From NCBI RefSeq assembly GCF_003382365.1, contig NZ_QTSU01000002.1, positions 372,001 to 436,000 on the forward strand: DNA of 64,000 nucleotides, given 5' to 3'. The translations under genes and the position numbers were made by a program. The notes below the pieces were generated by a model. The model made no database searches and was not told the origin of the DNA. It saw nothing but the letters and a program-made list of their open reading frames with translations. Origin of the DNA: Lysobacter silvisoli (GTDB lineage Bacteria > Pseudomonadota > Gammaproteobacteria > Xanthomonadales > Xanthomonadaceae). Shown one piece after another: positions 4,295 through 57,100 of the stretch; positions within the stretch are counted from its first letter, which is position 1, and each line of letters begins with the position of its first letter.

Positions 4295-5082
4295 GCCGCG
4301 AACAACCGCTGCAGCGCCGCGCCGGGATCGGGCTCACGCATGAAGCTTTCGCCGATCAGGAAGGTCTCGATGCCGGCGCCGCGCATCTTGGCCACGTCGG
4401 CACCGGTGGCGATACCGCTCTCGGTGACCAGGGTGCGGTCGCGCGGCACCGCCTCGCGCAGGGCGATGCTGGTGTCCAGCGAGACCTCGAAGGTGCGCAG
4501 GTTGCGGTTGTTGACCCCGATCAACTCGCAGTCGGTCTGCAGCGCGCGTTCGAGCTCGTCGATATCGTGCACTTCCACCAGCACGTCCATACCCAGCTCC
4601 ATCGCCAAGCCGGCCATCTCGATCATCGGGCCGTCTTCCAGCGCGGCCACGATCAGCAAGATGGCATCGGCGCCGATCACCCGCGCCTCGTACACCTGGT
4701 AGGGGTCGATGGTGAAGTCCTTGCGCAGCACCGGCAGCTGGCAGGCCGAGCGCGCCTCGCCCAGGTACAGGTTGCTGCCCTGGAAGAAGTCCACGTCGGT
4801 CAGCACCGACAGGCAGGCCGCGCCGCCGGCCTCGTAACTGCGCGCGATCTCGGCCGGACGGAAGTCGGCGCGGATCAGGCCCTTGGACGGGCTGGCCTTC
4901 TTGACCTCGGCGATCACCGCAGGCGCGCCGGCGGCGTGCTTGCGCTTGATCGCATCGACGAAACCGCGCGCCGGCGCCTGCCCGGCCGCGCGCGCGCGCA
5001 GGTCGTCCAGCGAACGCACGCGGCTGCGCTGTTCGATCTCCTCCACCTTGCGGGCGAGGATCGTGCGCAGGACATCGGTCAT
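4291..5082 (-). CDS. trpC: Indole-3-glycerol phosphate synthase
   Basis: Converts carboxyphenylaminodeoxyribulose 5-phosphate to indole-3-glycerol phosphate, the fourth step from chorismate to tryptophan. The 263-residue TIM barrel begins [16 protein letters not shown] and has the diagnostic KKASPSKG (catalytic Lys), [16 protein letters not shown] and VNNRNL motifs; the C-terminal phosphate site is ESGI...[12 protein letters not shown]. It is monofunctional, with no TrpF fusion. The ATG overlaps the stop of the upstream Mur ligase by 4 bp, so its translation is probably coupled to a cyanophycin-type gene rather than to trpD, about 7 kb upstream. Confidence 0.97.
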
Positions 5083-12187: not shown

Positions 12188-13219
12188 TCAGGACGCCAGC
12201 TGCCGGGTCGCGGCAACGAACTCGTCCAGCTTGGCGCGCGCGGCGCCGGAGGCCAGCGCGGCGCGCGCGAGCGCGATGCCCTCGGCGATGCTGTCGGCGG
12301 CGGCCGCCGCGTACAGCGCCGCGCCGGCGTTGAGGGCGACGATCTCGCGTGGCAGGCCGTCGTGGTTTTCCAGCGCCTGCAGCACCATCGCCTTGGACTC
12401 GACCGCATCATTCACGCGCAGATTGCGGCTGGCGGCCATGGCGATGCCGTAGTCCTCCGGGTGCACCTCGTACTCGCGCACCACGCCGTCGCGCAGCTCG
12501 CCGACCAGGGTGCCCGCGCCCAGCGACAGTTCGTCCATGCCGTCGCGTCCCCACACCACCAGCGCGCGCTTGGCGCCCAGTTCCTGCAGCACGCGCACCT
12601 GGATGCCGACCAGGTCGGGATGGAACACGCCCATCAGGATGCTGGGCGCATTGGCCGGATTGGTCAGCGGGCCGAGGATGTTGAACAGCGTGCGCACGCC
12701 CATCTCGCGCCGCACCGGCGCCACCACCTTCATCGCCGGGTGATGCACGGGCGCGAACATGAAGCCGATGCCGGTGCGCTCGATGCACCGCGCCACCTGC
12801 TCGGGCTGCAGCTCGATCGCCGCACCCAGCGCTTCGAGCACGTCGGCGCTGCCGGACTTGGACGAGACGCTGCGGTTGCCGTGCTTGGCCACCTTGGCCC
12901 CGGCCGCGGCGACCACGAACATGCTGGCGGTGGAGATGTTGAAGGTGTGCGCGCCGTCGCCGCCGGTGCCGACGATGTCGACCAGGCCGCTGCGGTCGGC
13001 CAACTGCACCGGCCGCGCGAATTCGCGCATCACCGTCGCCGCGCCGGCGATCTCGCCCACGGTTTCCTTCTTCACCCGCAGACCGGTGAGGATGGCCGCG
13101 GTCATGGTGTCGGAGACTTCGCCGCGCATGATCATGCGCATCAGCTCGACCATCTCGTCGTGGAAGATCTCGCGGTGCTCGATGGTGCGCTGCAGGGCTT
13201 CTTGGGGGGTGATGGGCAT
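12188..13219 (-). CDS. trpD: Anthranilate phosphoribosyltransferase
   Basis: Second step of tryptophan synthesis: anthranilate plus PRPP to phosphoribosyl anthranilate. The 343-residue protein has the glycine-rich PRPP loop [14 protein letters not shown], the [15 protein letters not shown] loop, and the GRDGMDELS motif with Asp/Glu metal ligands. It is monofunctional; glutaminase TrpG is a separate gene two positions upstream. The ATG at 13219 is 12 bp past the stop of the small secreted protein gene. Confidence 0.97.
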
Positions 13220-13231
13220 GGCGCGGTCCGG

Positions 13232-13576
13232 TCAGAGCGAGGCGTGTTCGAGAATTTCCTGTCCCATCAGCACACAGTCCTTGCCGTCGCGCCAGTACTC
13301 CAGGCGCATGCGGTACTGCCCCTTGTAGACGTAGCCCCAGACCTCGAGCACGTCGAAACGCTGTTGCTTGTTGGCCGGGTTGACGATCGACGGCAGCGGC
13401 TTGGCCGGGCCGGAGACCTTGGCGCGGTCGTCGCCGTCGGTGTGGAATTCCAGCAGCTTCTGCGCCTGGATCAGCGCGTCGGCGGCGCAGGCGTGGCTGG
13501 ACGGCTTGGTCGCCGCCGGGGCGGCGAAGGCCGCGGCGGTCAGGACGAACGCGAGGGCGAGCTGGGGGCGGGTCAC
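13232..13576 (-). CDS. Small secreted protein of unknown function within the trp operon
   Basis: Unrecognised 114-residue protein with a clear signal peptide (MTRPQLALAFVLTAAAFAAPAA) and two cysteines in the mature part (HACAAD and KDCVLM) that could form a disulfide. The mature segment contains KPLPSIVNPANKQQRFDVLEVWGYVYKGQYRMRL-type beta-strand sequence (key pattern YVYKGQYRMR). The GTG at 13576 is chosen; a TTG at 13582 overlapping the trpG stop is an alternative. It sits between trpG and trpD. Periplasmic location is predicted; no function can be assigned. Confidence 0.75.
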   Translation of the reverse strand: MTRPQLALAFVLTAAAFAAPAATKPSSHACAADALIQAQKLLEFHTDGDDRAKVSGPAKPLPSIVNPANKQQRFDVLEVWGYVYKGQYRMRLEYWRDGKDCVLMGQEILEHASL

Positions 13577-13578
13577 GG

Positions 13579-14157
13579 TCAACGCTCCAGGAAGTTCTTG
13601 AGCAGGGCGTGGCCGTGCTCGGTGAGGATGGATTCGGGGTGGAACTGCACGCCTTCCACCGGATGCTCGCGGTGGCGCAGGCCCATGATCTCGTCGAAGC
13701 CGCCGTCCTCGTTCTCGGTCCAGGCGGTTACGTCCAGGCAGTCGGGCAGGGTGTCGCGCGCGACCACCAGCGAGTGGTAGCGCGTGGCCTCGTAGCGGTC
13801 CGGCAGGCCGGCGAACACGCCGCGGCCTTCATGGCGGATGCGCGAGGTCTTGCCGTGCATGATGGTCTTGGCCCGCACCACGTCGCCGCCGTAGGCCTGG
13901 CCCAGGCTCTGATGGCCCAGGCACACGCCCAGAATCGGCACGCGCGCGCCGAGTTCGCGGATCACCTGCAACGACACGCCGGCTTCGTTGGGCGTGCACG
14001 GCCCCGGCGAGATCACGATGCGCTCGGGCTGCAGCGCCTCGATCTGCGCCACCGACAGGTCGTCGTTGCGGATCACCTTCACTTCCGCCCCCAAGGCTTG
14101 CAGGTACTGCACGAGGTTGTAGGTGAAGCTGTCGTAGTTATCGATCATCAGCAGCAT
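13579..14157 (-). CDS. trpG: Anthranilate synthase glutaminase component
   Basis: Class I glutamine amidotransferase that supplies ammonia to TrpE for anthranilate synthesis. About 192 residues from [11 protein letters not shown]; the nucleophile is in GVCLGHQ (about Cys79) and the catalytic His-Glu in FHPES near the C-terminus. The [10 protein letters not shown] oxyanion loop matches TrpG/PabA; PabA activity is possible, since trpE lies separately upstream. A weak ribosome site precedes the ATG. A putative Trp leader peptide lies about 205 bp upstream. Confidence 0.95.
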
Positions 14158-14361
14158 GAGGGGGCCACTCGTTCGGGTCGCGCGATGCGCGGTCGGGGGG
14201 AAGACGGAAGCGGGCGCGCAGCCATGGAACCGCACGGGGGACGGCCGGCGCTGGGGCGCCATTGTGCTATGCGCGGCGGGCGCAGGCATCCGCGCACGCG
14301 GGCACGGGGCCTGCGCGGCGTGACGGCGTCGGGGAAATGCGATGGGCGGGGGTCGCGGCCT

Positions 14362-14502
14362 TCAGGCGCGGGCGACGGACATCGGCTGGGGGTCAAGCGG
14401 GGATTCCTCGATGGACGGACAGGGGCGGTCGGACGCGCAGCGCCACCATCGCCAAGCCTGGCCGGCTTTACAGGAATCGAGTCGGATCGCGGAGGAACCC
14501 AT
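14362..14502 (-). CDS. Putative tryptophan leader peptide upstream of trpG
   Basis: A 46-codon frame starting ATG GGT TCC TCC encodes a peptide with the run AWRWWRC: three Trp codons in four positions, at codons 17, 19 and 20. The DNA over the Trp run (TTGGCGATGGTGGCGCT, 17 nt) is identical to that in the frame ahead of trpE. A 7-bp inverted repeat (GATTCCT at codons 9-11 and AGGAATC further down) brackets the Trp codons. Leader peptides rich in the regulated amino acid are the hallmark of attenuation. The reading is inferred; expression is not shown. I see no obvious U-rich terminator before trpG. Confidence 0.7.
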   Translation of the reverse strand: MGSSAIRLDSCKAGQAWRWWRCASDRPCPSIEESPLDPQPMSVARA

Positions 14503-14517
14503 GGCCCTACTGTAACC
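14503..14517 (-). promoter_or_regulatory. Candidate -10 box for the trpG leader (possibly leaderless start)
   Basis: On the minus strand the sequence GGTTACAGTAGGGCC abuts the leader ATG. TACAGT resembles the -10 hexamer TATAAT and is 6 nt from the ATG, which would place transcription start at or beside the A of the start codon. The same TTACAGT box precedes the trpE leader. No good -35 hexamer is seen, so this is a candidate only. Confidence 0.4.
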
Positions 14518-14560
14518 GCTGCGGCGCGGCGCGGCGAGCGGCTGGGGCCACTGCCCCGCT

Positions 14561-14838
14561 TTGGGGTAGGAGCGGCGTAAGCCGCGACCGCGTCAGTGGG
14601 GGCCGTCGCGAGTTCGGGGCCTGATCGCGGCTTACGCCGCTCCCACAGGAGGCGCACCTGCTGGGCCCGGGGTAGGAGCGGCGCGAGCCGCGACCGCGTA
14701 TCGGCCGATCACGGCGCGAGCTTCGTTCGGTGCCGGGGCTGGCGTCGTAGTCGCCATGGCGCGGTCGCGGCTTGCGCCGCTCCTACCCTAAGCGATCGCC
14801 GCTCTGCTTCCTGTAGAAGCGGCGTGAGCGGCGATCGC
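14561..14838. repeat. Cluster of REP-like palindromes
   Basis: Two complete inverted pairs lie at 14561-14646 and 14667-14788, plus a single half copy at about 14811-14838 (GAAGCGGCGTGAGCGGCGAT). They fill the space between the histidine kinase gene and the trpG leader. The second pair has a longer internal spacer (about 70 bp). No gene is seen here. Confidence 0.8.
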
Positions 14839-14868
14839 GTATTGGGCGGTAGGCCACGGCTGCGGGAG

Positions 14869-16215
14869 CTAGGCCGCCGGCAGCACCACCCGCACGCGCA
14901 GGCCCGGTCCGTTGTCGCCCAGGCTGATCCGGCCGCCGTGGCGCTGCACGATCGCGCGCACCAGGCTCAGGCCCAGGCCGGTGCCTGGCGAGCCGCGGTG
15001 CGCCTCCATGCGCTGGAAGCGGTCGAACATGCGCTCGCGCTCGGCCTCGGGGATGCCGGGGCCGCGGTCGTCGACCTGCAGCAGCACCCCGGTGCTCTCG
15101 CCGTGCACGCGCAACTGCACCGCGCTGTCGGCGGGTGCGTACTTGAGCGCGTTGTCTAGCAGGTTCACCAGCAGCTGGAACAACTGGTCGGCGTCGCCCT
15201 GCACCCAGCCCGGCGCCAGTTCGGTCAGCAGCACGATGCCGCGCTCGGCGGCGCTGGGGGTGTAGAGATCGGCGGCGTCGCGCGCGAGCGCGGCCAGGTC
15301 CAGGCGCGGCGCCTGGATGGCCGGCGCCTGCGCCTCGATCCGCGCCAGCCTCAGCAATGCGCCGAAGGACTGCAACAGCTGGTCGGTCTCGGCGATCGCC
15401 GCGTCCAGCTCGGCGTCGCGGCTCTGGCCGCTGGGCCGCTCGCGCAGTTCCTCCAGACGGTTGCGCAGCCGGGTCAGCGGCGTGCGCAGATCGTGGGCGA
15501 TGTGGTCGGTGGCGTGGCGCACCCCGCCCAGCAGGTCTTCGATGCGGTCGAGCATGCCGTTGAAGCGGCGCGCCAGGCGGTCGAAGGCGTCGTCGCTGCC
15601 GTCCAGCGGCACCCGCAGCGCGAGTTCGCCCTCGCCCACGCGCGCGGCGGTGTCGTCCAGGTGGCGCAGGCGCCGCGACACCCAGCGCGAGGTCAGCCAG
15701 CCGATCGCCGCGCCCAGCGTGGCCGCCACCAGCAGCGCCGCCAGCGCGGTGCGCAGCATCAGCGCCAGGAAACGGTCCTGCGAGCGCAGGCGCACGCCGG
15801 TGAGCAGGGTTTCGCCGCCCGGCAGGTGCAGCAGCTGCGCGACCACGCGCAGGCGCTCGTCGCCCTGGTGCTGGGCGAAGGCGATCCAATGCGGGCTGCG
15901 GCCGCCGCGCGGCAAGGCATCTTCGTAATGGCCGGCCAGCGTCCGGCCCTGCGCGTCGAACAAGGCATAGACGGCGTCGGTATCGTCCTGCGCGCCGCGC
16001 TCGCGCAGTTCATCGGCCAGCGCCGCGCGCCCGCCTTCGCGATACAGCTCGACCAGGCCGGCGGCATCGGCGCGCACCACTTCGCGCGCGTCGCCGTCCA
16101 GCAGCGCCGACACCGCGTAGTGCACGCCCACGCCCAACAGCACGAAGGCCAGCAGGAACGAGGCGGTGACCGCCAGCGCCAGGCGCGCGCTGGCGGAGCG
16201 CGGCGCCGGGCTCAT
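14869..16215 (-). CDS. Two-component sensor histidine kinase
   Basis: Inner-membrane sensor of 448 residues. TM1 is at about 12-34, followed by a periplasmic domain of about 110 residues, TM2 at about 150-172 (LRTALAALLVAATLGAAIGWL), HAMP, a HisKA dimerisation domain with the phospho-acceptor His in DHIAHDLRTPLTRL, and HATPase with N box LVNLLDNALKYAP, G1 DDRGPGIP and G2 GTGLGLSL. It matches the QseC/EnvZ-like class. The ATG at 16215 overlaps the regulator stop by ATGA. The signal is unknown. Confidence 0.93.
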   Translation of the reverse strand: MSPAPRSASARLALAVTASFLLAFVLLGVGVHYAVSALLDGDAREVVRADAAGLVELYREGGRAALADELRERGAQDDTDAVYALFDAQGRTLAGHYEDALPRGGRSPHWIAFAQHQGDERLRVVAQLLHLPGGETLLTGVRLRSQDRFLALMLRTALAALLVAATLGAAIGWLTSRWVSRRLRHLDDTAARVGEGELALRVPLDGSDDAFDRLARRFNGMLDRIEDLLGGVRHATDHIAHDLRTPLTRLRNRLEELRERPSGQSRDAELDAAIAETDQLLQSFGALLRLARIEAQAPAIQAPRLDLAALARDAADLYTPSAAERGIVLLTELAPGWVQGDADQLFQLLVNLLDNALKYAPADSAVQLRVHGESTGVLLQVDDRGPGIPEAERERMFDRFQRMEAHRGSPGTGLGLSLVRAIVQRHGGRISLGDNGPGLRVRVVLPAA

Positions 16216-16886
16216 GCGCCCAGCCGGTAGCCGGCGCCGCGCACGGTGTGCAGCAGGGGCTTGGGATAGCCCTGATCGATCTTCTGCCGCAGCCGGCTGA
16301 TGTGCACGTCGATCACGTTGGTCTGCGGATCGAAGTGGTAGTCCCACACCGCCTCCAGCAGCATGGTGCGGGTGACCACGCGCTCGGCTTGGCGCATCAG
16401 GTACTCGAGCAGGCGGAACTCGCGCGGCTGCAGCTCGATGCGCTTGCCGCTGCGGCGCGCCTCGCGGCTGAGCAGGTCCAGCTCCAGGTCGGCCACGCGC
16501 AGGCGCGTGGGCTCGCTGCCGCCCGCGCTGCCGCGGCGGGCGATGCTGTCCAGGCGCGCGCTGAGTTCGGCGTAGGCGAAGGGTTTGACCAGGTAGTCGT
16601 CGGCGCCGGCGCGCAGGCCTTCGACGCGGTGATCGACCTCGCCCAGCGCGGTCAGCAGCAGCACCGGCGTGCGGTTGCCGGCGCCGCGCAGGGTCTGCAG
16701 CAGGGTCAGGCCGTCCAGCCCGGGCAGCATGCGGTCCAGGACCAGGGCGTCGTAGGGCTCGGTGGTGGCCAGGAACAGGCCGTCCTTGCCGTTGTCGGCC
16801 TGGTCCACGGCATGGCCGTCTTCGCGCAGCCCCTTGGCGATGAAGCCCGCGGTATGGAGATCGTCTTCGATCAGCAGGACGCGCAT
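16212..16886 (-). CDS. OmpR-family response regulator
   Basis: A 224-residue DNA-binding regulator. The receiver domain (1-115) has acidic pair EDD at about 7-9, phospho-acceptor Asp at about 51 in LVLDRMLPG, Thr in LLLTA and Lys in VKPFAY. The C-terminal winged helix (about 125-224) has the ELQPREFRLLEYLM and RTMLLEAVWDYHFDPQTNVIDVHISRLR signatures. It pairs with the overlapping kinase. The ATG at 16886 was chosen by alignment with the MRVLLIEDD start. It lies downstream of a small secreted Lys-rich protein that could be a target. Confidence 0.94.
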   Translation of the reverse strand: MRVLLIEDDLHTAGFIAKGLREDGHAVDQADNGKDGLFLATTEPYDALVLDRMLPGLDGLTLLQTLRGAGNRTPVLLLTALGEVDHRVEGLRAGADDYLVKPFAYAELSARLDSIARRGSAGGSEPTRLRVADLELDLLSREARRSGKRIELQPREFRLLEYLMRQAERVVTRTMLLEAVWDYHFDPQTNVIDVHISRLRQKIDQGYPKPLLHTVRGAGYRLGA

Positions 16887-16903
16887 GCCGACTCCCGGTG
16901 TCG

Positions 16904-16938
16904 CAAAAGAATACCCCGCCGGGAGGAAGCCGGCGGGG
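16904..16938 (-). terminator. Probable terminator after the Lys/Ala-rich protein gene
   Basis: On the minus strand CCCCGCCGG and CCGGCGGGG form a perfect 9-bp stem with a 7-nt loop, followed by TATTCTTTTG. It lies between the small protein gene and the response regulator and may insulate them. Confidence 0.6.
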
Positions 16939-17000
16939 CAGCCACCTGGGGTCGTAGGTGGGCTTCGGGGACGCAATCGAACCAGGGATCGTGCGGGGGA

Positions 17001-17180
17001 TCAGCTCTTCTTGGCTTCGGCGGCCTTGGCCTCGGCCTTCTTCGCCTTGTGGGTCTTCTGCTTCACGGCGGCGGTCTTGGCCGGGGCGGCGGCGCCGGGG
17101 GCCGGGGCCGGGGCAGCGGCGAAAGCCGAGCCGGCGACGGCGGTCAGGGCGAGCGCGAACAGGGCATTGCGGACGTTCAT
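17001..17180 (-). CDS. Tiny Ala/Lys-rich secreted protein
   Basis: A 59-residue protein: a signal peptide (MNVRNALFALALTAVAGSAFA) followed by a 38-residue mature peptide made almost entirely of Ala, Pro, Lys and Glu (KTHKAKKAEAKAAEAKKS end). The composition recalls acid-shock protein Asr, which is periplasmic, basic and protects against acid, but there is no diagnostic motif. The ATG at 17180 has GGAGCCCC upstream. It neighbours an OmpR/kinase pair, a typical setting for stress-induced small proteins. Confidence 0.7.
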   Translation of the reverse strand: MNVRNALFALALTAVAGSAFAAAPAPAPGAAAPAKTAAVKQKTHKAKKAEAKAAEAKKS

Positions 17181-17386
17181 GGTGGGGCTCCTGGACACGG
17201 ATGGGACGGACGGTGGGTAGATGAAATTAGAGATGCGCAAATCGCGGAGGGAATCTCGGTCTGCCGGTGGGGTGGGCCCACCGCAGGGACAGATTGCGCG
17301 CGGCGTCTTGCCGGGGAGCTTTCCGGCACATGAACTATCGGTAATGTTGGGTGGGCGCGTGGAACGCAACGCCTGCGCTTTGCTCG

Positions 17387-17642
17387 TCATTCCCGCGAAG
17401 GCGGGAATCCAGCGACCGCGGCGTCTGCCTGGATGAAGCCCTGGATTCCCGCGTTCGCGGGAATGACGGGGCGGGGCGGCTGTCTGGATGAAGCCCTGGA
17501 TTCCCGCGTTCGCGGGAATGACGGGGCGGAGCGGCTGCCTGGATGAAGCCCTGGATTCCCGCGTTCGCGGGAATGACGGGGCGGGGTGTCTGCCTGGGTG
17601 GAGCTCTGGATTCCCGCGTTCGCGGGAATGACGGGGCGGGGT
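17387..17642. repeat. 55-bp tandem repeat with an internal ATTCCCGCG palindrome
   Basis: Four units start at about 17441, 17496, 17551 and 17606, an exact period of 55 bp, preceded by a half-palindrome at 17387-17411. Each holds ATTCCCGCGTTCGCGGGAAT, a perfect hairpin, then TGACGGGGCGG and a GTCTGGATGAAGCCCTGG link. The last unit has several changes. The same link and palindrome appear in diverged form at 34258-34418. It occupies the 495-bp gap between the small Lys-rich protein and the SIMPL gene; I see no coding sequence there. Confidence 0.9.
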
Positions 17643-17676
17643 GTCGCGAGATGTCGCGTACACCGTTCCAATCGGC

Positions 17677-18447
17677 CTAGTCGGCCAGCAGGAACACGGT
17701 GTAGATCTTGTCGTCGAAATCGACGTAGCCGTTCTGGAACGAGGGCGCGGCCGCGTTGTACTGAAGGCGGCTGCCGGTGACCTCGATGCGGTCCAGCGTC
17801 CGGTTATCGCCGTTCCAGGCATACATCGCCGGCCAGCTGCCCTCGCGCACGCCGTATTGGAACTGCGGCGCCACGTCGGACACGCTGTAGACGCCGGCCA
17901 GCTTGGCGCCGTAGGCCTGGGCGATGACCTCGGCCTTCTCGCGCGAGGACGCGATGCTCTTCTGCCGCAGCTGGCGGCGCAGTTCGGCCTCGCTGGATAG
18001 CTCGGTGCTCACATTGGAGATCGACAGCTCCTTGGACGTGGTCACGCTGCCCAGGAACCGCTCCAGCGCCTGCTTGTCGTCGAAGCGCGCGGTCAGGTTG
18101 CGGCGCACGCCGGTGCCGACGAACACTTCCTGCCGCTCCTGATTGTCGTAGCGGCGGCGCGTGTCGATTTGCAGCGAGGTGGCGACGATCTCGCGGTCGG
18201 CCACGCCTGCGGCCTTGAGCTTGGCGATAGTCGCGCCGAGTTGGCTTTCGACCCGGGCGCGCGCGGCGGCGGGATCGGCGTCCACCGCCTCGAACTGGAT
18301 CGCCAGCTTGTAGCGGTCGGGCACCGCGCGCGCTTGCGCGTCGCCGTAGACCAGGATGTGGCGCGTGGGCGGCAGCGCGTTGACCTGCGCCTGCGCGGCG
18401 TGGGACAGCAGGGCCAGGGCCAGCAGGGCGGATAGGCGTAGCGTCAT
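17677..18447 (-). CDS. SIMPL-domain (DUF541) periplasmic protein
   Basis: A 256-residue exported protein. The signal peptide is MTLRLSALLALALLSHAAQA; the SIMPL (DUF541) domain fills the rest, with ILVYGDAQARAVPDRYKLAIQFE, ESQLGATIAKLKAAGV and a C-terminal ITVEVT-like strand (DRIEVTGSRLQY). SIMPL proteins form oligomeric periplasmic or outer-membrane assemblies and have been linked to oxidative stress; the exact role is unknown. The ATG at 18447 gives a standard signal peptide. Confidence 0.85.
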   Translation of the reverse strand: MTLRLSALLALALLSHAAQAQVNALPPTRHILVYGDAQARAVPDRYKLAIQFEAVDADPAAARARVESQLGATIAKLKAAGVADREIVATSLQIDTRRRYDNQERQEVFVGTGVRRNLTARFDDKQALERFLGSVTTSKELSISNVSTELSSEAELRRQLRQKSIASSREKAEVIAQAYGAKLAGVYSVSDVAPQFQYGVREGSWPAMYAWNGDNRTLDRIEVTGSRLQYNAAAPSFQNGYVDFDDKIYTVFLLAD

Positions 18448-18568
18448 GCGGTCGTCTCCTCGAGGACGGAATGGGGCCAGGTAGGCGCGCCCTGCCCCCG
18501 CAGGACGCACGGTGTTGGCAACGCATGATGCGTCGCGACGGGGTTAAGTCCGCCGCGCCAGGCTCTGC

Positions 18569-18660
18569 TTTGGGGTAGGAGCGGCGTGAGCCGCGACCGC
18601 GCCAATGAAAGCCCTGCGCGAGTTCGGAGCAGGTCGCGGCTCACGCCGCTCCTACCCCAG
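18569..18660. repeat. REP-like inverted pair
   Basis: Two inverted copies of the GGGGTAGGAGCGGCGTGAGC element flank a spacer of about 45 bp. It sits immediately after the trpE stop codon (10 bp away). Confidence 0.85.
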
Positions 18661-18669
18661 AGCGAGGGC

Positions 18670-20160
18670 TCAGAGCCCGCGCGCGGCCTCGGCCACGGCG
18701 CGGAACAGCGCGCGGCCCTTGTTCATCGTCTCTTCCCATTCCTTCTCGGGGTCGGAGTCGTAGACGATGCCGGCGCCGGCCTGGATGTACAGGCGGCCGT
18801 CCTGGATCACCGCGGTGCGGATGGCGATGGCGGTGTCGGCGTCGCCGTGCCAGCCGATGTAGCCCACCGCGCCGGAATAGACGTTGCGCTTGATCGGTTC
18901 CAGCTCGCGGATCACTTCCAGCGCGCGGATCTTGGGCGCGCCGCTGACCGTGCCGGCCGGGAAAGTCGCGCGCAGCACCTCGGCGTAGCTCAGATCCGGC
19001 TTGAGCTTGCCGGTGACCTCGCTGACGATGTGCATGACATGGCTGTAGCGTTCGATCACGAACTGCTCGCCCACTTCCACCGTGCCCGCCTGGGCCACGC
19101 GGCCCACGTCGTTGCGGCCCAGGTCGATCAGCATGAGGTGCTCGGCGCGCTCCTTGGGATCGGCGAGCAGCTCGGCTTCCAGCGCCACGTCCTCTTCCAC
19201 GGTCTTGCCGCGCGGGCGGGTGCCGGCGATCGGGCGCACGGTCACCTCGCCGTCCTGCAACCGCACCAGGATCTCGGGCGAGGAGCCCACCACCTGGGTC
19301 TCGCCCACGTCGAGGAAGTACATATAGGGCGAGGGATTCAACGCGCGCAGCGCGCGGTACACGTCCACCGGCCGCGCCTTGAACGGCACGCTCAGGCGCT
19401 GCGACAGCACCACCTGGAAGATGTCGCCGGCGCGGATCAGCTCCTTGGAGCGTTCCACCGCGGCGATGAAGCCCTCGCGGGTGAAACCGGAGACGAAGTC
19501 GCCCTCCTCCAGCCCGGCCGGGTCCAGCGTCTCCGGATAACCGGCGCCGGCATGGCGCAGGCGGTGGCTGAGCTGATCCAGGCGGCGGTTGGCGCGCGCG
19601 TAGGCCTGCGGCTCGCTGGGGTCGGCGTGCACGATCAGGTACAGCCGGCCCTTGAGGTTGTCGAACACCGCCACTTCCTCGCTGAGCATCAGCAGGATGT
19701 CGGGGGTGCCCAGTTCGTCGGGCTTGAGGCTGCCGTCGCGTTGCGGGCCGGCCAGGCGCGGTTCGATGTACTGCACGCATTCGAAGCCGAACCAGCCGAC
19801 CAGGCCGCCGGTGAAACCGGGCAGGCCTTCGATCTGCGGCACGCAGTGCTCGGCGCGCAGGCGCTCGACTTCGGCGAAGGGATCGTCGACCACGCGGCTG
19901 TCGACCAGTTCGCCCACTTCGGTAACGAACAAGGTGTTGCCGGCGAAGGCGTACACGCGCTTGGCCGGCAGGCCGATGATCGAATAGCGGCCGAAGCGTT
20001 CGCCGCCCTCGACCGATTCGAACAGGTAGGTGTGCGGGCCGTCGGCGAGCTTGAGGTAGACCGACAGCGGCGTGTCGAGGTCGGACAACACCTCGCGCAC
20101 GACGGGGATGCGGGTGTAGCCGTTAGCGGCCTGTTGCTGGAAGAGTTCGGACGAGATCAC
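18670..20160 (-). CDS. trpE: Anthranilate synthase component I
   Basis: Converts chorismate to anthranilate with ammonia from TrpG; first committed step to tryptophan. It has 496 residues. The N-terminal regulatory site contains [18 protein letters not shown], matching the LLES-type Trp feedback-binding region; the chorismate-binding domain has [38 protein letters not shown] and the terminal [17 protein letters not shown]. It starts at GTG 20160 with Shine-Dalgarno GAAGGAA 8 nt upstream. The start lies inside the 3' end of an upstream Trp-rich frame, and the Shine-Dalgarno can pair with an element in that frame. Confidence 0.97.
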
Positions 20161-20266
20161 GCAGCGATTCCTTCGGAGACGGGTGGGCAGGGGCGACGGT
20201 GGTCAAGCGCCACCATCGCCAACCCACGTCGGCGCGGAAGGAATGCGGGTTCGCCCAGAAGCTCAT
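20123..20266 (-). CDS. Putative tryptophan leader peptide overlapping trpE
   Basis: A 47-codon frame from ATG 20266 encodes a peptide starting [10 protein letters not shown] and containing GWRWWR: Trp at codons 4, 16, 18 and 19. It shares the 17-nt Trp-run sequence with the frame upstream of trpG. It runs past the trpE start and ends at 20123 in another frame, overlapping trpE by 38 bp. The Trp codons lie in a hairpin GGCGATGGTG / CACCGTCGCC with one G-U pair. The abundance of Trp codons immediately ahead of trpE is the hallmark of attenuation; no experimental support is available here. Confidence 0.75.
20167..20244 (-). promoter_or_regulatory. Candidate anti-Shine-Dalgarno pairing element of trpE
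   Basis: ATTCCTTC in leader codons 8-11 (plus-strand 20237-20244) is the exact reverse complement of GAAGGAAT (20167-20174), which is the trpE Shine-Dalgarno. The arms bracket the Trp codons. A ribosome stalled on the Trp run would cover or disrupt the upstream arm and free the trpE ribosome site. This is a structural inference; the trpG leader has an equivalent 7-bp pair. Confidence 0.5.
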
Positions 20267-20281
20267 GGGCGCCACTGTAAC
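20267..20281 (-). promoter_or_regulatory. Candidate -10 box for the trpE leader
   Basis: Minus-strand sequence TTACAGTGGCGCCC precedes the leader ATG; TACAGT is 7 nt from it, so the transcript could start at the ATG. The same box precedes the trpG leader. A recognisable -35 is absent. Confidence 0.4.
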
Positions 20282-54103: not shown

Positions 54104-57100
54104 ATGGACAAGTTCGTAGGCCGCTGCGCGGCCGTGGCTTTGGCTTTCCTGATCTCAGGCGGCGCCCAGGCGCAGGTCGTGATCAGCCAGGTATACGGCG
54201 GAGGCGGCAATTCCGGCGCCACGCTGAAGAGCGACTTCATCGAATTGCGCAACAACGGCGCCACGCCGGTGGACCTGAGCGGATGGAGCGTGCAGTACGC
54301 ATCCTCCGCAGGCACCACGTGGGCACGCACGCCGCTCACCGGCAGCATTCCCGCCGGCGGCTACTACCTGATCAAGCAGGCCGACGGCGCCGGCGGCACC
54401 GTCGACCTGCCCACGCCCGACGCGACCGGCACCCTGGCCATGGCCGGCACCGCCGGCAAGGTCGCGCTGGTCAACAACAACACCTCGCTGAGCGGCGCCT
54501 GCCCGGTCGGCGGCGCCACCGTGGTCGACTTCGTCGGCTACGGCACCGCCGCCAACTGCTCCGAGACCGCGCCCACCGCGACGCTGACCAACTCCACGGC
54601 GGCGCTGCGCAAGAACGACGGCGCCACCGACACCGGCAACAACAGCGCCGACTTCAGCACCGGTGCGCCGACGCCGCGCAACACCGGCACCACGCCGCCG
54701 CAGCCGCCGGACCCGCCGGTCGCGCTGACCATCGCCCAGATCCAGGGCAGCGGCCTGCTGTCGGCCTACGACGACAAGCTGGTGGTGACCGAAGGCATCG
54801 TCACCGCGCGCAAGTTCAACAACGGCTTCTTCCTGCAGAGCGCCAACGACGACGGCGACCCGAACACCTCCGACGCGGTGTTCGTGTTCACCGGCGCCGC
54901 GCCGCCGGCCAGCGCCGCCGTGGGCAACCGCGTGCGCGTGACCGCCAAGGTCGACGAATTCACTCCGGCCTCGAACCCGAACCAGCTCAGCATCACCGAA
55001 CTGGTTTCGCCGACGGTGGAACTGCTGGAAACCGGCGTGGCCCTGCCCGCCGCGATCGAGCTGACCTCGGCCGAACTCGGCGCCAACGCCACCCCGGGCA
55101 CGCTGGAACGCCTGGAAGCGATGCGCGTGAGCGTGGCCCAGTCCGTGGCGGTCTCCGGTTCGGACGGCAGCATCGACGAGGACGACGCCAACTCGTCCAG
55201 CGACGGCGTGTTCTACGTGCGCCTGCCCGAGGTGGCCGTGCCGTTCCGCGAGCCGGGCATCGGCATCATGGACACCATTCCGATCCCGGCCGGCAAGAAC
55301 CCGCCGCGCTTCGACACCAACCAGGAACGCCTGATGGTGCGCAGCCGCGGCCAGATCGGCGCCGCCGCGCTGTCGGTCGACGGCCAGGCGCAGATCTCCG
55401 GCCTGCTCGGCGTGCTGGACTACTTCGCCGGCACCTGGGCGCTGCTGCCCGACACCGCCACCCCGCCGACCTTCGCCGGCGGCAAGCAGCCCGAAGCGGT
55501 GGCCGACGCCGGTTACGAAGACATCACCATCGGCGGCTTCAACCTGCTGCGCTTCTTCGACGAAATCGCCGAGAGCAACGGCGCGCCGACGCTGAAGCCC
55601 GAAGCGGTGGAGAAGCGCCTGGGCAAGACCTCGGCCGCGATCTGCCAGTACCTGAAGACGCCCGACATCCTGGGCGTGGTCGAAGTCGAGAACGTCAGCA
55701 TCCTGGGCCGCCTGGCCGACCGCATCAACAGCAGCTGCGCCAGCGCTCCGGGCTACGTGCCCTACCTGGTCTCGGGCAACGATCCGGGCGGCATCAACGT
55801 CGGCTTCCTGGTCGCCACCCGCGACAGCGGCGCCCAGCCGCGCGTGGAAGTGGTCGAGGTGGTGCAGTACGGCAAGACCGCCACCTTCGCCAACCCCAAC
55901 GGCAGCACCGCCCTGCTCAACGACCGCCCGCCGCTGCTGCTGCGCGCGATCGTGCACCAGGACAACGGCGCTTCGTACCCGATCACGGTGATCGCCAACC
56001 ACCTGCGCTCGCTCAACGGCATCGACGATGTCGCCCCGGGCGGCAGCGGCTGGGCCACCGAGGGTGCGCGCGTGCGCGCCAAGCGCGGCGCGCAGGCGGC
56101 CTACCTGGCCGGCCTGATCGAGCAACTGCAGCAGACCAACCCGAGCGAGAAGATCGTGCTGGTCGGCGACTTCAACGCGTTCGAGTTCAACGACGGCTAC
56201 ACCGACGTGCTGGGCATCATCAAGGGCGAGGAAGCGCCGGAAGACCAGGTGCTGACCTACGTCGACAGCCCGCTGACCTCGATCTTCGTCGACGGTTCGC
56301 AGCTGATCGCCGACCCGGCGCAGCGCTATTCCTACGTGTTCGAAGGCAACGCGCAGACCCTGGATCACGTGCTGGTCAACGAAGCGCTGGTGATGGACAA
56401 CGTCGGCTTGGCGGTCGACCACGCCCGCATCAACGCCGACTTCGGCGTGTTCCGCTTCGGCGACGCCAGCCAGCCGCTGCGCGTGTCCGACCACGACCCG
56501 GTGCGCCTGACCCTGACCGTGCCGGCCTTCCGCAGCGCCGACCTGGCGGTGACCGCCGCCGCGACCCCGGCCAGCGCCCGCGCCGGCCAAACGGCGACTT
56601 ACACGGCCACCGTGGTCAACCACGGTCCCAGCGAAGCCGATCACGCCGCCGTGGCCTTCGTGTTCGACGCCCTGGTGGCGCCGGTCGCGACCGCGCCGGC
56701 CGGCTGGACCTGCGCCGCGCCGGTGCAGGACGCCGCCACCACCACGGTCTCGTGCACAGTGCCGGCCCTGGCTTCGCAGGCCTCCGCCTCGTTCTCGCTC
56801 AGCGTGACCTTGCCGGTCCTGGCCAGCGGCACCCCGCTGCGCATGGCGGTGGCGGCGCAGTCGCAGACCCGCGATCCGGCCAACGGCGACAACCAGGCCT
56901 CGGCCGAAGTGGTCGTCACCACCCTGGCCGACCTGTCGGTGCAGATCGCCGGCGGCGCGCTGCCGGTGCGCAAGGGCGCCATCGCGACCTTCCTGGTGCC
57001 GGTGACCAACGCCGGCCCGGACGCCGCCGCCCAGCCCAAGCTGGTGCTGACCGGCAACGTCGCGGTGTCCGCCGCGGCCGTGGCCGCGCCGGCCGGCTGG

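Follow-up and report, generated by a model that had tools for sequence, protein, structure and literature searches.

The 64,000-nt stretch analysed here (the window; Lysobacter silvisoli, contig NZ_QTSU01000002.1, positions 372,001 to 436,000 of the forward strand) carries trpE and trpG, the genes for the two components of anthranilate synthase, on its minus strand, and each of them is preceded by a short open reading frame (ORF) with three tryptophan (Trp) codons in a Trp-Arg-Trp-Trp run (W-R-W-W or WRWW). The two leader ORFs are paralogous and resemble a translation switch that has been duplicated. The copy ahead of trpG appears to control a second ORF, here termed ORF2 or relay ORF, rather than trpG itself. 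All coordinates are window positions.

Two related leaders ahead of trpE and trpG

The genes and the elements of the two leaders are located as follows:

18670..20160, minus strand: trpE (anthranilate synthase component I), GTG start at 20160, passing the curated cut-off
20123..20266, minus strand: trpE leader ORF, 47 codons with W-R-W-W; peptide ends ...GR*; stop 38 nt inside trpE
20274..20279, minus strand: TACAGT hexamer resembling a -10 box, 7 nt ahead of the trpE-leader ATG; putative leaderless start
20237..20244, minus strand: arm ATTCCTTC, complementary to the trpE Shine-Dalgarno sequence
20210..20221, minus strand: Trp codons of the trpE leader, TGG-CGA-TGG-TGG
20167..20174, minus strand: trpE Shine-Dalgarno GAAGGAAT, pairing with arm ATTCCTTC
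13579..14157, minus strand: trpG (anthranilate synthase component II), ATG start, passing the subfamily-model cut-off
14362..14502, minus strand: trpG leader ORF, 46 codons with W-R-W-W; peptide MGSSAIRLDSCKAGQAWRWWRC...*; ends 204 nt ahead of trpG
14509..14514, minus strand: TACAGT hexamer resembling a -10 box, 6 nt ahead of the trpG-leader ATG
14472..14478, minus strand: arm GATTCCT, complementary to the relay-ORF Shine-Dalgarno
14443..14454, minus strand: Trp codons of the trpG leader, TGG-CGA-TGG-TGG
14402..14408, minus strand: relay-ORF Shine-Dalgarno AGGAATC, pairing with arm GATTCCT

A first-pass annotation had described two W-R-W-W frames at these positions that share a 17-nt stretch, one ahead of trpE and the other ahead of a trpG-(D)-C cluster. 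Both frames were indeed found on the minus strand, and the common 17-mer (20206-20222 and 14439-14455) occurs without mismatch exactly twice in the 4.54-Mb genome. The placement held for trpE, trpG and also trpD, which lies 3' of trpG (12188-13219, curated cut-off passed); trpC, by contrast, is not adjacent and is located about 7 kb beyond trpD at 4303-5070. When up to two mismatches are allowed, the 17-mer has three matches in the window, where 0.07 would be expected, the third (two mismatches) being located at 55877. Clusters of the type W-x-W-W, W-W-x-W or W-W-W occur 19 times across the six frames of the window. As Trp clusters alone are thus not rare, the weight of the case rests on conservation.

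In all counts given here, "genus" refers to the genus of the window, represented by 20 genomes including that of the window, and "family" to the Xanthomonadaceae; where single relatives have to be distinguished, they are coded L (locus), G (genome) or g (genus). Lack of a conserved WRWW frame in related species had been named beforehand as a refuting test for twin leaders. The frame is kept, and the claim stands: both leaders are present in 20/20 genus genomes, and searches by pattern identified the trpE leader in 51 of 70 family trpE loci (30 and 40 from two draws) and the trpG leader in 23 of 59 trpG loci (30 and 29). In total, the trpG leader was found in five genera. Degenerate leaders, such as that at L029, are among the 19 trpE loci that the pattern did not match. 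Four leaders (one trpG, three trpE) for which no start was found by rule were left out of the distance count. The trpE leader stands in a constant frame relative to trpE: the spacing between the first Trp codon and the trpE start varies from 58 to 91 nt but is 1 mod 3 throughout (48/48 leaders, not counting the three trpE leaders that lack a start by rule).

With a covariance model derived from 43 leaders, matches at E 0.01 were obtained in 283 of the 395 family genomes. At this threshold and with strict filters, exactly two matches were obtained in each of the 20 genus genomes, and no third leader was found there. Another 23 genomes outside the genus have two matches, and in 19 of these (g38, g45, g64, g71) trpG is located downstream of the second copy; in the remaining four (two g48, two g17) the second match is weak (E 6e-4 to 9e-3) and far from the trpE match, and these were left aside. 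An order-wide draw of 299 genomes gave model matches in 62, all of them listed as Xanthomonadaceae, the share of other families in this draw being not fully listed. Among 13 titled contigs that were checked, trpE is within the stretch in nine, and in seven of these nine a leader directly precedes it: Xanthomonas codiaei, Pseudoxanthomonas helianthi, Stenotrophomonas sp. RAC2, Luteimonas weifangensis, Vulcaniibacterium thermophilum, a Xanthomonadaceae metagenome-assembled genome and Lysobacter xinjiangensis, the last with a short form (WRWR). The contigs of Rehaibacterium terrae and Luteimonas terricola show no leader ahead of trpE. We infer that the trpG leader is the copy and the trpE leader the original. 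The open-licence literature yielded no description of a trp leader, or of a relay such as that proposed below, in Xanthomonadaceae; subscription journals lie mostly outside that literature, so that an earlier description is possible.

Probable start sites and predicted base pairing within the leaders

A TACAGT-like hexamer is positioned 6-9 nt (mostly 6 or 7) ahead of the leader start in 74/74 leaders, a count that is partly built in, since the start codons were chosen by a rule requiring such a box. In the window, no well-spaced Shine-Dalgarno sequence is located between the box and either leader start; the trpG leader has an AGGG only 2 nt from its ATG. Box spacing and the lack of a well-spaced Shine-Dalgarno suggest that both leader mRNAs are probably leaderless, with a transcription start predicted from the box.

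For the trpE leader, the predicted fold contains the ATTCCTTC:GAAGGAAT pairing with a Trp-codon hairpin in between (z -2.66 versus shuffles). The trpG leader possesses a site of the trpE type at the equivalent position, consisting of a Shine-Dalgarno sequence and a GTG, which is TTG in the window. As expected of a translational attenuator, the ribosome-binding site of the next start is paired in silico with leader sequence that lies further upstream. Across 31 distinct leaders, the duplexes between each arm and its own Shine-Dalgarno were more stable than those obtained after swapping the arms (mean -14.3 versus -11.9 kcal/mol; z -6.0, 0 of 5000 permutations), and two control regions scored z -1.4 and -1.1. 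In these runs and in the opening-energy calculations, L056 replaces L055, the start of which was misplaced by the rule.

The effect of a ribosome on this pairing was modelled for the 31 leaders by moving a blocked stretch codon by codon along the RNA, W+n denoting the position of the A site relative to the Trp run. Placing the A site on each of the three Trp codons in turn (W+0, +6 and +9) lowered the cost of opening the next start by 3.9, 3.4 and 2.7 kcal/mol, respectively, compared to free RNA, and this gain shrank to 1.0, 0.3 and 0.05 kcal/mol at W+12, +15 and +18. Two alternative ribosome footprints gave a similar course, with gains of 1.8 and 2.9 at W+9 and 0.2 and 0.3 at W+15. When the arm was shuffled, the difference between W+0 and W+15 dropped from -3.58 to -0.24. 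The results place WRWW at the downstream edge of the range within which a ribosome keeps the site open; as earlier codons also open the site, the run would be the last chance rather than the sole place to do so. Thus, in silico, occupancy of the presumed stall site frees the ribosome-binding site and passage beyond it closes the site again. The anatomy of the leaders fits a stalling-controlled opening of the ribosome-binding site.

At both trpE and trpG, a leader ORF with tandem cognate codons precedes a biosynthetic gene, which is the arrangement of trpL-type attenuators. In the classical mode of transcription attenuation, a ribosome stalled at these codons would select an antiterminator over an intrinsic terminator, and the short leaders, their tandem Trp codons and the hairpin at these codons, together with the precedent in other proteobacteria (PMC7298713), are in line with such a process. 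However, a consensus scan confined to the window sequence identified no intrinsic terminator near either leader, the sole site between 13500 and 20700 being located at 16912-16940, and the trpE leader ends inside trpE, which leaves no room for a terminator. We therefore regard classical attenuation as very improbable. Neither leader had an Rfam match up to E 5. The proposal of the first-pass annotation, parallel attenuation by charged tRNA-Trp, is accordingly retained in so far as homologous Trp-sensing leaders are well supported by conservation, whereas a transcriptional mode is not supported. The annotation also suggested that the trpG leader may reach genes far downstream; trpC, at least, is not adjacent.

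Alternatively, the leaders might be translation enhancers, at which ribosomes that have finished the leader re-start at trpE and the Trp codons are no sensors. The overlap of leader and gene would suit this function, and leader genes that raise the translation of the next gene have been proposed elsewhere (PMC4833913). A conserved WRWW run bordering the modelled opening range is not predicted by an enhancer, nor is the matching of arm and Shine-Dalgarno. In the window, the leader stop is located 38 nt past the trpE start, which is far for re-starting. Enhancement of this kind thus appears the least probable of the explanations considered here.

A putative relay ORF running from the trpG leader to trpG

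The start site within the trpG leader does not belong to trpG, but opens a second ORF that runs up to trpG and that was missed by the first-pass annotation:

14148..14396, minus strand: relay ORF (ORF2), 82 codons; start codon TTG (GTG in the remaining 19 genus genomes); TGA overlaps the trpG start

In the window, ORF2 starts 239 nt upstream of the trpG start, and its TGA lies inside the sequence C-TGA-TG. An ORF that is out of frame with the main gene and ends over its start, as in known relays, was found in 33/38 loci including the window (19/20 in the genus, 14/18 outside), at lengths ranging from 132 to 408 nt. The set of 38 loci excludes L216 (G197), which has an RWWR leader and no pattern match, and L232, which has no trpG in the stretch. 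At L227, ORF2 stops 3 nt ahead of trpG, and at L228 (G136) it is fused in frame to trpG, so that TrpG of this strain could carry an N-terminal extension begun at a Trp-controlled site. ORF2 of the trpG-type leader at L230 (G198) reads in frame into an inserted SIMPL-like gene, which stops 3 nt ahead of trpG. A different form of the leader was observed at L213-L216 (g38), where, unlike in the window, it stops right after the Trp codons (RWWR*), short of the relay start.

Among the 20 genus genomes, the ORF2 frame contains no stop before the trpG overlap, and the other two frames contain 27 and 42, some of which are fixed by the overlapping starts and stops. Parsimony on a trpG tree of the 38 loci, which is partly resolved (14/34 inner branches well supported), required at least 30 length changes and 4 frame changes (P 2.3e-9, assuming that each length change has a 2-in-3 chance of shifting the frame). 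For the 20 genus genomes alone, 16 length changes were accompanied by a single frame change (P 7.7e-7), and for g64 six by one (P 0.018). In contrast, a spacer that lies ahead of the trpE leader and served as control had undergone nine length changes and six frame changes (P 0.62). Gaps in 11 close pairs chosen by us were multiples of three in 11 of 15 cases, the others measuring 4, 5, 8 and 79.

The amino acid sequence appears to be free to vary. In the same 11 pairs, substitutions at the three codon positions numbered 112/121/121 in ORF2 versus 39/22/215 in trpG; the GC content of ORF2 is flat across codon positions in the genus, and ORF2 of the window has no Pfam match. ORF2 hence seems to be translated for the sake of translation, and its protein product appears unimportant. 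A peptide with a function of its own, or a frame kept by chance, might be proposed given that the ORF2 frame continues, in the 38 loci read, as far as the trpG start or a stop that lies 3 nt ahead of it. However, the even distribution of substitutions, the flat GC content, the missing Pfam match of the window copy and the strong variation in length argue against a functional peptide, and the parsimony result, compared to that of the control spacer, against chance, so that we consider either of the two quite improbable.

The RNA of ORF2 is C-rich (0.45) and G-poor (0.29). C exceeds G in 37/37 ORF2s (L230 was left out of the composition and promoter-box counts), and in 30/37 the skew lies above the 95th percentile of the background. 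Rho utilization (rut) sites are the established ground for regarding C-rich, G-poor RNA as a substrate of Rho, and untranslated ORF2 RNA is plausibly such a substrate. The same composition would also suit Rho-dependent attenuation without any relay, in which Rho loads on the C-rich stretch after the trpG leader unless stalled ribosomes or structure prevent this and ORF2 is incidental. Such a process leaves unexplained why the frame is preserved through at least 30 length changes, why Shine-Dalgarno and start are kept, and why variants with a fusion or a stop before trpG occur; in addition, ribosomes stalled in the leader would presumably expose rather than cover the C-rich stretch. Rho acting without a relay therefore seems unlikely to us, if less so than the other alternatives.

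Further features of the locus are a 116-amino-acid ORF without NCBIfam match between trpG and trpD (13235-13582, minus strand) and a SIMPL gene between trpE and trpG (17677-18510). Inverted repeat elements of the GTAGGAGCGGCG...CGCCGCTCCTAC and GATTCCCGCGTTCGCGGGAATGACGG types were noticed by eye at 14568-14790, 18570-18661 and 17380-17650; in Rfam, the stretches 18570-18661 and 17380-17650 give only matches below gathering scores.

A proposed model for Trp control by leader and relay

Taken as a whole, the observations are best explained by two translational attenuators, the trpG copy of which acts through the relay ORF, and we hold this explanation with fair, though by no means full, confidence. 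Each leader would be translated from an mRNA that is probably leaderless. With ample Trp, ribosomes would pass WRWW, which would allow the 5' arm to pair with the downstream Shine-Dalgarno sequence and to close the next start; when charged tRNA-Trp is scarce, a ribosome held at WRWW would cover the arm and the next start would stay open. The start controlled by the trpE leader would be that of trpE itself. At the trpG leader, the copied trpE-like site would open the relay ORF, which runs to the trpG start and ends over it. The Trp signal would then reach trpG through translation of the relay, because ribosomes re-start at trpG, because they shield the C-rich, G-poor RNA from Rho, or for both reasons.

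Several observations weigh against this explanation. In the window itself, the modelled course is rougher than on average, with opening costs at the trpE leader of 13.1 kcal/mol for free RNA, 8.8 at W+0, 11.5 at W+6 and 11.2 at W+9, and rougher and also weaker at the trpG leader (10.8 free, 9.0 at W+0, 11.0 at W+15). The stretch from the trpG leader of the window to trpG, the GATTCCT:AGGAATC pairing included, folds no better than its shuffles (z -0.23), and the trpG subset of eight leaders also scored in one of the arm-swap controls (z -2.95). Covariation in a fixed register is weak or absent: the paired and swapped values are 0.62 and 0.57 for g1 trpG, 0.78 in both cases for g1 trpE, 0.51 and 0.50 for the other trpE leaders and 0.33 and 0.37 for the other trpG leaders (three rows). 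RNAalifold on a 43-row MAFFT alignment returned nothing beyond a hairpin of 5 bp at the Trp codons, with no pair changed on both sides; as the arm shifts its register, duplex swaps and constrained folding were used instead. With respect to the relay, openness of ORF2 has a chance probability of 0.15-0.66 per genus genome at the prevailing GC content and is therefore not improbable, so that the argument rests on the frame. Moreover, ORF2 stops 10 nt further inside trpG at L036 (G015) and 88 nt further inside at L226 (G145). The trpG start region shows no extra structure (9.1 kcal/mol at 38 leader loci versus 10.3 at 36 control loci without a trpG leader, p 0.14), and coupling by unfolding is thus unsupported. 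Finally, a GATAAT box, resembling a -10 element, is present in 25/37 ORF2s, where 0.06 would be expected, at 48-201 nt before the trpG anchor. The hexamer is absent from the window, and none occurs within 400 nt upstream of trpG in the 36 loci without a leader. The box is a probable internal trpG promoter, which makes a second, leader-independent start of trpG transcription likely in many species.

In both the erm genes (PMC5118997) and toiL-topAI of E. coli, where repression leads on to Rho termination (PMC12121999), ribosomes stalled in a leader govern the translation of the next gene. Similarly, the Xanthomonadaceae loci combine a short upstream ORF, a ribosome-binding site of the next gene within a predicted stem, and a pairing that stalling in the ORF would alter. 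The signal at toiL and erm is an antibiotic, whereas here it would be a shortage of an amino acid at Trp codons; in addition, the leader is probably leaderless here, the trpE leader overlaps its target, and one copy would act via a relay ORF. A Trp-codon leader ahead of trpE is shared with the trpL attenuators of E. coli and S. meliloti, and the RNA of S. meliloti trpLE(G) begins at the trpL ATG and is leaderless (PMC7298713); in contrast to the leaders described here, these attenuators use a terminator, and the present leaders match no Rfam leader family. The trpG arrangement resembles the B12 riboswitch-uPPE2-ppe2 system of M. tuberculosis, in which the link has been called a relay (PMC11260477). 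There, the sensor governs an out-of-frame upstream ORF with a stop overlapping the start of the main gene. Its sensor is a B12 aptamer, as opposed to the Trp codons of a leader peptide, and here the frame is kept in many species with the sequence left free. At the SAM-II riboswitch of S. meliloti metA, a regulated Shine-Dalgarno sequence also acts on a start codon well downstream, namely by 74 nt, in a translation at a distance (PMC9373788); unlike the trpG leader, metA has a riboswitch, an in-frame start and no relay ORF. The LEU element of actinobacterial leuA resembles the present leaders in its cognate-codon leader, its stem closing the Shine-Dalgarno and its lack of a terminator. In the LEU element, however, the Leu codons themselves pair with the site, whereas in the present leaders this role would fall to a separate arm located 5' of the codons; codon changes were without effect on regulation there, and a protein was proposed instead (PMC1262725). 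By analogy, this system is a warning precedent that adds to the points against our explanation, since leaders of similar appearance may not respond to their codons.

We consider it somewhat more probable than not that a duplicated amino acid attenuator has brought along its own start codon and thereby created a new cistron, selected only for being translated. Spanning up to 136 codons, this cistron would convey the signal of Trp starvation to trpG, and its protein would drift freely. If so, a reading frame would be under selection without its protein being under selection, and the relay ORFs of this family would provide a natural series, with the frame kept and length and residues free, for asking whether bacterial ORFs can persist purely for ribosome traffic. 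Gene finding based on protein conservation would miss such ORFs, and other relays may therefore hide in GC-rich genomes. For the Xanthomonadaceae, a family whose trp genes are split in the genome studied here, our explanation, if true, would mean that control in response to Trp starvation is exerted on translation and not through the choice of a terminator.

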